64,000 nucleotides of DNA from Heliocidaris erythrogramma. Lineage: Eukaryota > Echinodermata > Echinoidea > Camarodonta > Echinometridae. The stretch covers positions 22,063,608 to 22,127,607 of the forward strand of contig CM046868.1 in the NCBI GenBank assembly GCA_025617745.1. The letters run 5' to 3'. Each line of letters begins with the position of its first letter. Position 1 is the first letter of the stretch. The translations under genes and the position numbers were made by a program. The notes beneath the pieces are model-generated. The model saw only the letters and a list, made by a program, of their open reading frames with translations, had not been told where the DNA came from and did not search any database. Below, one piece after another: positions 44,701 to 53,700 of the stretch.

Positions 44701-47700
44701 ATTTTTCCCATCGATGATGTAGACCCATTTTCAGTATCTATTTATTATGGCTTCAAATATTAAAAGGGTCTACATTATTCTTTGGTGGAAATTATGTCAT
44801 ATTTTTTATACATGCTTTTTTTTTTGTCTAGGGGGGGGGGGGGGTGTAAAGCCCAAAATCAACCACAAATGTAAAAACATTGCCCCCCACAAATGTCAAA
44901 ATAACCACAAATGTCACAAAATGTCAACCACAAGTGTAAAAATAACCACAAATGTAAAAAAAAAATCGCCCACAATTGTAAAAATCTGTTTAACCACAAA
45001 TGTAAAACATTTCGCCTACAAATTTTTACAACAAATATAACATGTCGACCGCAAATGTAAAAACTCATTGCTTGCATATTGCACCCATGTAAGATAAGTT
45101 ATTATGGTAAATTGCAACTTGGTCCAATGCAAATTAGTCTAATAGCCAAATGGTCTAACATCATTCGGTCTAACAACAATTCGTCCATCACCAATTTGTC
45201 TAATCAACATTTTATCTGATATCCATTTGGTCTAATAAACACTTCGTCTAATCACCACTTCGTCGATACCGTCAATTCGTCTAAAACCCATTTGGTCTAA
45301 ACACCACTTGGTCTAATAATCAGTTCGTCTAATGTTCACTTGGTCCAATATCTATTTCGGCTTAAACCAGTTGGTCTAATAACCAAATGGTCTAATCATA
45401 ATTTCGTCTAATAGCCATTTTGTCTAAACCCAGTTAGTCTATCACCCACATCGTCCAATCATCACTTCGTCTAATTACCATTTTGTCTAATTATTATTTG
45501 CTCCAATTCTCGGTTCGTCTAATAACCGTTTGGTTCTAATGTTCACTGGGTCAAATACTACAGACAAATAGGTTAGCCTGTCATAGGTTATATAGGTTTA
45601 TTGCCACTTGGTGTACAGCCAGCTGGTCTAATAGCCAATTGGTCCAATCATCATTTCCTCCAATTACCATTTGGTGTAGTTGTTGATTCGTCTAATAACC
45701 ATTTGGTCCATTACCAATAGGTCTAATTGCCATTTCGACTAATCATCAAATGGTCTAACACGAATTGGTCTAATACCCATTTGGTCTACACATCATTAGG
45801 TCCATTTGTCAGTTAGTCTAACCTCACTTGGTCTATCATCATTAAGTCAACATCCATTTAGTCTAATAACCATTTGGTCTAATTTTCATTTAGTATAATA
45901 TCCGTCTGGTCTAATTACCATTTGGTCTAATCATCGTTTCATCTAATGACCAACTGGGCTAATTTTTTGTATTCTCCCCTACAATACTACTGTAAGTGGC
46001 TTTGACTAAACAGTCAGGTCTCCGTTCGGCGCACTGGCCGAAATTTTCGAACTTTTTTGCAGTAATTGTATGTTATTTTTTTAAATTTTTTATTTATTTT
46101 TTATTTATTTATTTATTGTTTATTTTTTATTTTTTGTTTATTTATTTATTTATTTATTTATATATTTTTTTGGGGGGGGGGGGGAGAAAAGGTGACCTGA
46201 TGGAGCATGGCATTAATTAATTACATGTACTTAATCAATTATTCTAGTGAATAAATTAATTAATTAATGAATTAATCAATGGGGCTGTAGCCCATCACCC
46301 GGGGGGGGGGGGGGGGCGGTTTCAAGGCAAATGCAATGTATATGCCTATATAACGCTCGCTCACAAAATGTTGGAAAGGGTAGTTGGTCCATGGCAAGAG
46401 GCTTCAGTCCCCACTTCCAAAACGTTCCATTTCCCTGCATTATGGTATACATATAGTAATAATGGTGATAATACAGAATAGAAAGACAGTGACAATAATG
46501 AGAGGGAGAGATGATGGAAGAATGAATATAAGGAGTAATATAAGGAAAGACGGAAGTAAAAAGTTAATCGATGAATAACATTACAAAAGGGAGGATAGAA
46601 AGTTAAGGGATAGAAGGATAAAGACATAACGTAAAGATAGATGGATAGAGAGAGAGTGAGAGAGAGAGATTGTGGAAGGAAAAAGAAAACCATTGCGAAT
46701 GATGGAAGAGAAGATTATAAAAAGGCAACACAAAAAAAAAGAAAAAGTATAACAACAAAATTAGAGAAAAGGAAAAAGATAAAAAAAAGATAAAAAGAAA
46801 GAATAATGCAAAATAGGCGAAATGATAGAAATATATACTAAGTATTATGTAGGATTTCCGGGCCTCAAAAATCATGCAAGTGCTTTAGGTGCCCATTTTC
46901 AAATAACGGGCCATCCCATATATCAAAATGTTAAAAAGTCACTGATTTGGTGAATATAAAATAAAATACTTCTAATTGTGATCAGTCAGACAATATGTCC
47001 TTGAGATTATAGATGTTGTTTGGGTGCCCATTATGACCAAAGAGGCCCACGAAATTAATTCATATGCAAAATAGTTTTTTTTTTATGGTAGACAATAATT
47101 TTGAAATCAAGATCATATGAAAAGCCCACTTTAGCAGTCACATGGGCCAATCGATGGCCCATTGAAGGCAATTCTTGTTCAATTTGAATTATTCCCGAAC
47201 AAGAGCATGGCCAAATTCAAATTGGCTGCCGAAGTGTTAAAATATCTCTTGAGTTTCACCTTTGCAGGCAGGATAGTTCTGCCTGTGTGCCAGTGTGATA
47301 AACGATATGACTATTTGCATGTAAAGTTTACTCTGTGTCTGGAAATGTCTATACAAATGTTATTCTAACTCTAACATGTTTCTCTTCTCATTGTAGAGTT
47401 TTACATGAACAATATACATTAAAATCCCGATGACCCATATCAATCTGATCTTTTGCAAATAATGTTATTATGCCAAAGTACATTATAATCAGATGCAAAC
47501 AACTAAACATTATAAAACCGCACTTTGCTCTTTGTTTTTCACCTGCACGGCCATATTGAGAAAAAAATGATATGTTATATAGTATACTATTAATACATGG
47601 TTCGGAGTGCGTTGGTGCGATCTGGCAACACAAATGTTTTTATCGTGGTGTACTATACGCACGAGGCGCAATCCGAGTGTGTTTGACACAACGATAAAGA

Positions 47701-50700: not shown

Positions 50701-53700
50701 TCACGGGGGGGGGGGGGTTATTGTGTTTGTGAATCACCACCACAGCACGGTGCATCGCCTCGTCGTAACTTGGTGCTCTGAGGATTGAGCTATCAGTATA
50801 AGGGAGTATACCCAAAACGCTGTAATAAATTTGCTTTATGTCTGTTTAGATGAACAATTGCAATATCCAGTAATTTCTATAGTTATACACAAAGTTCTGC
50901 CTCATGTCAAGTTATAAGTTTCAAGACAAAGCCACATCTCAGTGAAACAGACCAGCGGACATTTCAAATATGACGGCCATCTTGGTGAAATGAAGTGACC
51001 CTATATATGCTACAGGTTTTTTAAGCTTGCCCGCCTTTCCAATGAACGTTCAAACTCAAAGTTATATGCAAGTAGGCATATTTTAAAACTTCAGCAGCCA
51101 GTTTTAACCTGGCCATCCTCTTGTGAGAGAATTAATCAAATTTAAAGAAAGATGCCCCTGAAGTGGGCTTTTCATATGACCTTGATTTCAAAATTGCCGT
51201 CTATCATTAAAAAAAATTAAACAAAAGACGAAAAAACCCTCTTATGTTGCACATAGATTCATTTGGGCCTTAATGGGTCACAATGGGCATCTAAACCACG
51301 TATCTTGTTAATTTCAAGGACATAATATCTGACTGACCACAGTTAGAAGCATTTTACTTATATTTAATAAATCAGTGAGTTTGTAATATTTTGATATATG
51401 GGATAGCACCATCATTTGAAAAAAATGACCACCTAAAGCACTTATATATTCTACAAAATTTTAGTATATCAGAACTAGATATGAATAAATCAGTTATGAA
51501 GGAAAAATACCCTGAGATAGCCATGTTTTTTTTCAATGGGAACAAATGGCCCCAGGGCTCAAATTTTAGGTTTCAGAATTATTCAGCATCAAAATCTCTA
51601 CCTATATGCCAAATGTTATGCTTTTATGAAAAAGTTCACAATTCCTTCGATTTTCAGCACCAATCTTGCTGGACTTTTGAGAGTGATAAAATAAATTGCT
51701 GTTCTATGTAGAGATCGATGGATTATGTAAATTTTGCCATTGAAGTTTATGATCAGCTGCTCGACCCCCCCCCCCCCCCCCCCAAATTTGCGATTAACAT
51801 GTTTTGACATTTCTGGTAAAGGGTGTTTCAATATTTTAGGGATTTTAATGGTCAGGAAAACCTCACACACACGCATACATACACACACACATACATATCA
51901 TAATAACTTATCTTACATGGGTGCTTTTATGCAAACAATGAGTTTTTACATTTACGGTCGACATGTTATGACATTTGTGGTAAAAATGGAAATTTTACAT
52001 TTGTAGGCGAAATGTTTTTACATTTGTGGTTAAACAGATTTACATTTGTGGTTATAAACAGATTTTTACATTTGTGGACTATTTTTTTTTACATTTGTGT
52101 TTTTTTTACACTTGTGGTTGACATGTTATGACATTTGTCGTTATTTTGACATTTGCGGGTGCAATGTTTTTACATTTGTGGTAATTTTTACATTTGTGGT
52201 TGATTTTTACATTTGTGGGCTCTACAGGGGGTTCCACCATGGATTCTCTTATTTTGTCCAATACAATACTGCAGTGCGGGTTTGTTGTACTGGTTGGGAA
52301 AGAATCTTAGCAAACCATGATGGAAAATGTGATTTTAAAAAGGGATGTAGATGGGGAGCGAAGCTGCCGGGTAACGTACCCATCTAACACCTGGGTGGAT
52401 AGAAGCAATTAAGATGAAATGCTTGTGCAAGGTCGTGCCGGGGATAGAACTCACGACATTCGCATATCAAGTCAAGTGTTTAAACCCCTCGACAACAACG
52501 CCTCTACGGGGGGGGGGACGAAAATTGGATGAAGAACGCTTCGTTTACAATGCTACTACATGTACATTTTTTATAAATTGCCTATTACTTTTCTTTTTTA
52601 CTTGAAATCCCATTCATCTGAAGCTACGTCGTAGTGAGGCAGTGACCGTCTCCATTAAATCGGAAGAAGATGGACCAAACATTGAACAGCTAGAGGAGAT
52701 ACTCTCGCAGTATGATCAGGCTGATGAACAGAAATGGTGAGATACAATTCCATTTGGAGTAACGATGACCCCCACTCCGGTAGCAGGCCTCATGGGAAAT
52801 AGTGTTCACTTTCTTTTCAACATGGATCCCTATGTAAAATCTAATGCTGAAAACGATGGCATCGACTGATTTTTGATAAAAAGTGCCCAAAGTGCCCAAA
52901 TTTTATGTTTTAGTGGCCCGCCATTGTTTTTATGCATTTCAGAGCCAACCTTAGGCCTAGAAACGTTCGCTTGGTGTTGAAAGCCCACTATAAGTAGTAA
53001 AATGAAATATGTTAGTGGTTAAGACCCACCAAAGACCTAAATAATGTATCATAAAATGTATCATAAAATGTCCCCCTATAAGAATAGTAGGGGGATGTGA
53101 CAGTATCCCTGGCTCCAGATAATGAATCAAGGATTTTGGCTACTGACTGACTGAATTAGGCACGGAATATCTAACACTTATGTTTAAAGGAGGGGGGGGG
53201 GGGTATAGATCTCTTAAAATATATTAAGGGAACTGATTACTCATAATTATACTTACCTGGATACAATCGTGCTCAAGCTTACACTTATACACTCATACTT
53301 ATTTTACACTTACTCTGATATTTAGAATTATATACTCATTCTCATACTCATATTCATATTCATGTTCATATTCAAACGTTTGATACTTATCTTCTTATAC
53401 TTTTACTTATTCTATAAATGTTATTCTTAATCAGGAGTGAGAGGCCTAGGGTGCTTTATGCAGTACCCAATGGCAATAATCCATCCGGAGAAACAACATC
53501 TTTGGAAAAGAGACGAAAGATATACGCCCTTGCACAGAAATATGATTTCATTATCATCGAAGATGATTCCTACTATTTCATCCAGTTCAACGAGGTAATT
53601 TCTCAAATATCGTTATTGTTTTTACGTTTCTTATATAATAACCGTAATTCCTTCTTTAATATTCTAAAAATGTTCTTCTTCTATTTCTGTTTACTCTTTT

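Follow-up and report, generated by a model that had tools for sequence, protein, structure and literature searches.

What fills the 8393-bp AADAT intron of the echinoid Heliocidaris erythrogramma? The intron lies at positions 44231-52623, by GT and AG borders read by eye, of a 64,000-nucleotide stretch of contig CM046868.1 (hereafter the window). The gene was assigned from one exon, at 53418, that matches kynurenine/aminoadipate aminotransferase, the AADAT product, with an E value of 5e-18. An earlier note on this DNA had proposed a foldback element at 44838..52228, making up nearly 90% of the intron. We found that the intron filler is one transposon. It spans 44845-52226 (7382 bp) and therefore takes up 88% of the intron as bounded above, in agreement with the earlier estimate; the proposal of a single element held, but its borders had to be moved, as 44838 falls within a flanking tract of 14 Gs (G14). 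The element is probably an old copy of a non-autonomous, foldback-type cut-and-paste transposon that tends to insert at the edges of G tracts, carries a second element as a composite, and would be served by an integrase-like enzyme. The preference for G-tract edges is the interesting part of this family.

The element begins TGTAAAG and ends CTCTACA, with GGGGG adjoining each side; its left end at 44845 is TGTAAAGCCC. Allowing 2 mismatches, the window contains 21 copies of the motif CCACAAATGTAAAAA, where shuffles predict 0.7. All 8 left copies (44863-45063) are on the plus strand and all 13 right copies (51802-52218) on the minus strand. In a search of the 1.06-Gb genome, an arm query that itself carried seven Gs gave 1159 candidates, and the 40 that were scored were long matches at 84-100%, the window copy among them. 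The 25-bp terminus, with up to 2 mismatches, was found at 810 places genome-wide (409+401), and its reversed control at none (0+0). We read 25 outer loci, 20 at 10 kb and 5 at 8 kb. An opposite-facing terminus was present in 19 of them and, after extension, in a 20th (L029), while L023 and L031 kept an opposite arm without a recognised terminus. A typical family member consists of a long arm of about 500 bp, followed by a middle, a 16-bp array and a shorter arm, with units spaced mostly 23 or 18 bp in the arms and 16 bp in the array; of 30 arms, 29 have their first CACAAATGT unit 9 bp from the end. Among ends that abut five Gs or five Cs, 39 facing pairs span 734 bp to 30 kb, and 35 of them are shorter than 8 kb. 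With terminal inverted repeats (TIRs) built of tandem repeats, and with copies that are dispersed, differ in length and have paired termini, the element belongs to the foldback structural class. These arm matches and paired termini bear out the foldback type with long tandem-repeat TIRs put forward in the earlier note. Its description of the TIRs as 16-bp repeats was right about tandem-repeat arms but not about the unit, which is mainly 18 or 23 bp, the 16-bp array lying only inside one arm. A literature search with the repeat letters found no match. Two loci, L017 and L020, are miniature copies of 734-740 bp with GGGGG on both sides.

Arm-to-arm identity is 79% in the window copy and 95% in L012. 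Another copy, L039, shows 97-98% identity with L012, L013 and L031 along 1.8 kb, and another 1.7 kb matches them at 95-97%. Because these relatives are so similar and the arms in the window only 79% identical, the data suggest that the family moved recently and that the window copy is old, although arms that were unequal from the start could depress the window's value as well. Segmental copying has taken place as well, with flanks common to L012/L013, L011/L026, L014/L018, L017/L020 and L019/L022. At L030 (481-5740), a rearrangement has brought copies of flanking DNA into the element: the left flank is repeated beside an inverted terminus at 5092, the right flank at 5252. A run of N was also noted at about 1900-2400 of L015, in a copy 97% identical to L039 over 415 bp.

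Target-site duplications (TSDs), which the earlier note had suggested looking for, are present and 5 bp long. The five flanking bases were identical on both sides in 15 of 21 end pairs, compared with a mean of 6.2 and a maximum of 11 in 2000 trials in which right flanks were shuffled among loci; 6, 7 or 8 identical bases were found in none of the 21. When the flank-sharing pairs among them (L012/L013, L017/L020, L011/L026, L019/L022) were each counted once, 17 distinct sites remained, 13 of which have the 5-bp duplication (shuffled mean 4.6, maximum 11 in 20000). Duplications of mixed sequence are GGGTC (L010, L030), GGGGT (L022), GAGGT (L025), AGGTC (L033) and GCCCC (L029/L034).

Five Gs or five Cs (G5/C5) abut 41 of the first 100 listed ends (20 G5, 21 C5), these being exact matches to the 25-bp terminus on contigs C1-C6. 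As background, G5/C5 accounts for 0.9% of the window with the element left aside and for 0.5% of distal locus DNA. Genome-wide, 93 exact termini are preceded by GGGGG and 97 by CCCCC, in counts that include segmentally copied loci. Among these 190 ends there are 39 pairs facing each other within 35 kb; 38 combine one G5 with one C5, which is what a GGGGG duplication requires; the remaining one is G5-G5. The tracts are one-sided: at least 10 Gs precede 70 of the 93 G-side ends, whereas at least 10 Cs precede only 13 of the 97 C-side ends (Fisher 1e-18). In L009, L012, L013 and L032 the left flank has the form T(n)G(n). The data are most simply explained if the element inserts at the 3' border of a G tract already present and duplicates the final five bases of that tract. 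The window copy is made up as follows.

44831..44844, plus strand: G14 tract, the target at the left junction (from the sequence and the TSD table)
44840-44844: left TSD copy, the last five Gs of G14 (TSD table)
44845..45105, plus strand: left outer TIR, CCACAAATGTAAAAA units mostly 18 or 23 bp apart
about 45110..45970, plus strand: 16-bp tandem array of GGTCTAATAACCATTT type, inside the left arm
46115..46842, plus strand: middle of the outer element, common to other copies
about 46833..47579, plus strand: left arm of the inner element, its outermost ~195 bp absent here
47617..47720: separate short core hairpin with 35-bp arms, 86% (inverted-repeat scan)
49447..50683, plus strand: satellite-like array, four TGTCCGAGGACATTTTCGGACA-type units between TG runs
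50818..51674, minus strand: right arm of the inner element, ending ...CTTGCTGGAC
about 51690..52226, minus strand: right outer TIR, the family's long arm, ending ...GGGCTCTACA at 52226
52227..52231, plus strand: right 5-bp TSD copy, GGGGG, followed by TTCC (TSD table)

Scans for inverted and for tandem repeats recovered the outer pair (44845-45105 / 51782-52226), the inner pair (about 46833-47428 / 50818-51674), a 16-bp array at about 45150-45960 and a satellite-like one at about 49.4-50.7 kb, so the two nested pairs of the earlier note stand, as do its two further core arrays, namely the 16-bp and the satellite-like ones. The window copy runs in the reverse direction to the usual family layout, its left outer TIR being the family's shorter (canonical right) arm. 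Many of the loci that were read have a 16-bp array of GGTCTAATAACCATTT type beside the equivalent arm. Relative to the arms, 46354-46842 is flipped in comparison with L009, L010, L018 and L024 and has the same orientation as in L029. The core hairpin resembles a miniature inverted-repeat transposable element, and 47927-48683 consists of dispersed repeats that also occur in L009, L013, L017 and L020 outside their elements.

The inner arm query gave 494 candidates; scoring 40 of them yielded 48 matches, the window's own among them, and inner arms face each other in three pairs that span 1.6-1.7 kb. Two loci taken from these pairs, L035 and L036, hold inverted inner arms without outer arms. In L036 the inner element runs GTCCAGCAG...CTGCTGGAC with TA adjoining both ends. 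L035 has an end of this type beside TA at its left and a degenerate right end, and in L029/L034 TA stands at both inner ends. Conversely, window positions 46843-51690 had no match in 20 outer loci (10 kb read) save for the dispersed repeats at 47927-48683. Since the inner repeat pair is found alone with TA ends and is absent from these outer loci, it is a second, different element.

The two elements are nevertheless found together at three loci with different flanks: the window, L029/L034 (on C18) and L038 (on C21). From one outer arm to the other, by way of the array, the middle and the inner arms, L029/L034 and the window are collinear. In the sequence that adjoins the inner right end on its outer side, the window equals L029 apart from a small deletion, and L038 follows L029 across the left outer/inner junction. 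The duplications differ, GGGGG in the window and GCCCC in L029/L034. Because the window and L029 share one junction, L029 and L038 the other, and the flanks differ, we infer that the composite moved as a unit, by transposition rather than another mode of copying. In a joined-flank test, both flanks of the inner insertion matched outer elements. A fourth candidate, by position only, is C15:29145094, where 2.9 kb separate an inner arm from an outer end; 2 of 35 inner-arm positions lie near an outer end when compared with the 190 G5/C5 ends only. Compared with L029, the window no longer has the outer portion of the left inner arm, nor some 2.3 kb of further sequence. The satellite units lie within the inner element in the window and near the outer arm in L029/L034; the TGTCCGAGGACATTTTCGGACA-type unit has four copies in the former and one flipped copy in the latter. 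At L038:6953-7143, a flipped copy of the spacer 50076-50266 takes the place of the TGTCCGAGGACATTTTCGGACA unit. This unit, bounded by TG runs, is possibly a mobile one that uses TG microsatellites.

No useful coding capacity was seen in the window copy, as the earlier note had claimed: its longest stop-to-stop frame is 169 amino acids (47798-48304), and no open reading frame (ORF) of at least 150 amino acids starting with ATG, GTG or TTG lies within it. Inspection by eye of stop-to-stop ORFs in 21 loci, plus four element middles, revealed no transposase. Six ORFs from L013 and L021 were compared with Pfam; RVT_1 matched at 5.5e-6, just under the curated cut-off, and the remaining matches were weak (Fer4_Nqo3 0.03, RhoGAP 0.1, DUF7046 0.75). 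L037, an 8-kb piece from within a 23.7-kb end pair, holds, by eye, a Penelope-like reverse transcriptase ORF of 671 amino acids, a gag-like ORF and a non-long-terminal-repeat retroelement ORF (823 amino acids, reaching the end of the stretch); no transposase was seen in it. The longest ORF in a 6-kb stretch inside a 7.78-kb pair (L039) is 157 amino acids, and no transposase was found there.

Two features of this account, the tract edge and the nesting, could have arisen otherwise. Any G-rich pentamer might be the target, with the Gs at one junction expanding later by slippage. G and C homopolymers are common and presumably slippery; the window outside the element has 38 of them, of 8-29 bases, in 56.6 kb. 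This explanation is nonetheless unlikely in view of the one-sidedness of the tracts at G(n)|TGTAG and C(n)|TGTAG ends. The mixed duplications GGGTC, GGGGT and GAGGT likewise end G-rich runs, and the T(n)G(n) left flanks fit a tract that was there before insertion. As for the nesting, unrelated insertions may have met by chance in this intron only, making the 7.4-kb element illusory. The earlier note held that arms found separately everywhere would speak for such an origin, and both families do occur alone, the outer at 20 loci without the inner repeat in the 10 kb read and the inner at two without outer arms. That is half of the picture, however, because both are together at three loci, with the right junction common to the window and L029 and the left one to L029 and L038. 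Chance nesting is largely refuted by these shared junctions, and we consider it very improbable; the nesting is one heritable composite.

Several observations weigh against a foldback transposon that inserts at G-tract edges and carries a composite. No transposase-bearing copy was seen in the loci read, the genome not having been searched by transposase family, and the stretches read contain reverse-transcriptase and other retroelement-like frames, recognised mostly by eye. At three loci (L014, L015, L027) the 10 kb that were read contain no opposite arm. The five-base match fails in 6 of the 21 end pairs and at 4 of the 17 distinct sites (L009, L018, L024, L032), the flanks of L024 being inverted. 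The window's own GGGGG, lying inside a G tract, is uninformative alone, and with loci sharing flanks the genome-wide end counts are not all independent. Regarding the composite, the right outer/inner junction of L038 is rearranged and differs from that of the window, its duplication is ambiguous (CCCAT or CCCCCAT), and the joined-flank test gave no clean empty site at the inner insertion, about 250 bp of outer sequence being missing.

The G-tract-edge transposon could then work in the following way. A DDE transposase acting in trans would bind the terminal TGTAGAGCCCACAAATG and probably also the repeated CACAAATGT units behind it, excise the element and join it to its target with a 5-bp stagger, as the duplication found at the sites reflects. 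G-rich targets are preferred, and within G tracts the duplicated bases are, statistically, the last five Gs at the 3' edge. Changes in arm and array length, by slippage or recombination, may account for the observed range of lengths, which starts at 0.7 kb. A second kind of element, whose ends adjoin TA, went into one outer element, and the resulting composite then spread as one unit to three or more places, the AADAT intron among them. Judging only from the TGTNR...YNACA termini and the duplication length, an integrase-like enzyme of the Ginger/TDD kind is the most likely one.

Other enzymes are to be set against this one. Transib and RAG-like elements make 5-bp, G+C-rich duplications, and their TIRs start with CAC. 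A transposase of this type, or another with a 5-bp stagger that is not integrase-like, would suit the duplication length found here, but the conserved terminus is TGTAGAGCC, which sits outside the CACAAATG motif, and we regard such an enzyme as the less probable choice, though one to be kept in mind. The TIRs of short tandem repeats, long and variable in length, recall instead the TU and Mutator/Foldback families, and the earlier note had likened the TIR architecture to the outer domain of TU. The sea-urchin TU element makes an 8-bp duplication and has an outer domain of ~15-bp direct repeats, and Galileo makes a 7-bp duplication. Beside this general description of TU, the present arm units are mostly 18 or 23 bp and those of the array 16 bp. 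The 5-bp duplication does not support the likeness to TU. Tetris, which its authors placed in Mutator, has duplications of 8-10 bp and no apparent coding capacity, according to the excerpted text of PMC4079207. The 5-bp length argues against Mutator/Foldback and TU membership, which we consider the least credible of these assignments. Among the matches listed in literature searches on sea-urchin TU, on G-tract preference and on 5-bp TSDs, there was no matching element. We entertain, tentatively, an undescribed animal transposase lineage that recognises the 3' boundary of poly(G) and moves large foldback elements, nested composites included, that encode no protein and reach about 10 kb. If true, homopolymer G tracts would serve as docking sites across the genome, the tract edge being recognised by sequence or structure.

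As a target rule for a DNA transposon, insertion at the edge of a G homopolymer would be unusually sharp, and with dozens of paired ends in the genome the rule can be tested directly. The composite illustrates how one element nested in another can come to belong to a transposon that brings several kb of non-coding DNA into introns. Mutator is where most foldback elements have been classified (PMC4079207, in excerpt); the distinct duplication length and termini of this family support independent origins of the foldback form.

Compared with known systems, the family shares long tandem-repeat TIRs and a variable interior with Foldback, Tetris, Galileo and TU, and with Tetris also the lack of apparent coding capacity reported in the available part of PMC4079207, where the tandem TIR repeats of Galileo are proposed to be extra transposase-binding sites. 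It differs from these in its 5-bp TSD, TGTAG termini and insertion at G-tract edges. The likeness to Ginger lies in the termini and the duplication length. Family termini TGTAG...CTACA fit the TGTNR rule of Ginger1 and Ginger2, and 5-bp duplications are given for TDD-4 and TDD-5, in the portions consulted of PMC2836005; for Ginger2/TDD, a length of 4 or 5 bp is given there and in the corresponding portions of PMC10045372. By contrast, the targets here are G-rich, not the AT-rich RTATAY preferred by Ginger2 or the CCGG/CCGT of Ginger1 with its 4-bp TSD (PMC2836005, same portions); the arms are far more repetitive, and no integrase-type transposase was seen in the copies read. A preference for simple repeats has been described for MuTAnT, Mutator-like elements that target TA microsatellites in Medicago (PMC4486113), the repeats being TA in a plant rather than the 3' edges of G tracts in an animal genome. 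A precedent for simple-repeat targets on the Ginger side is provided by endogenous nimaviruses of sesarmid crabs, which have a Ginger2-like enzyme and insert into (AT/TA)n microsatellites, as stated in the excerpt of PMC10871703.

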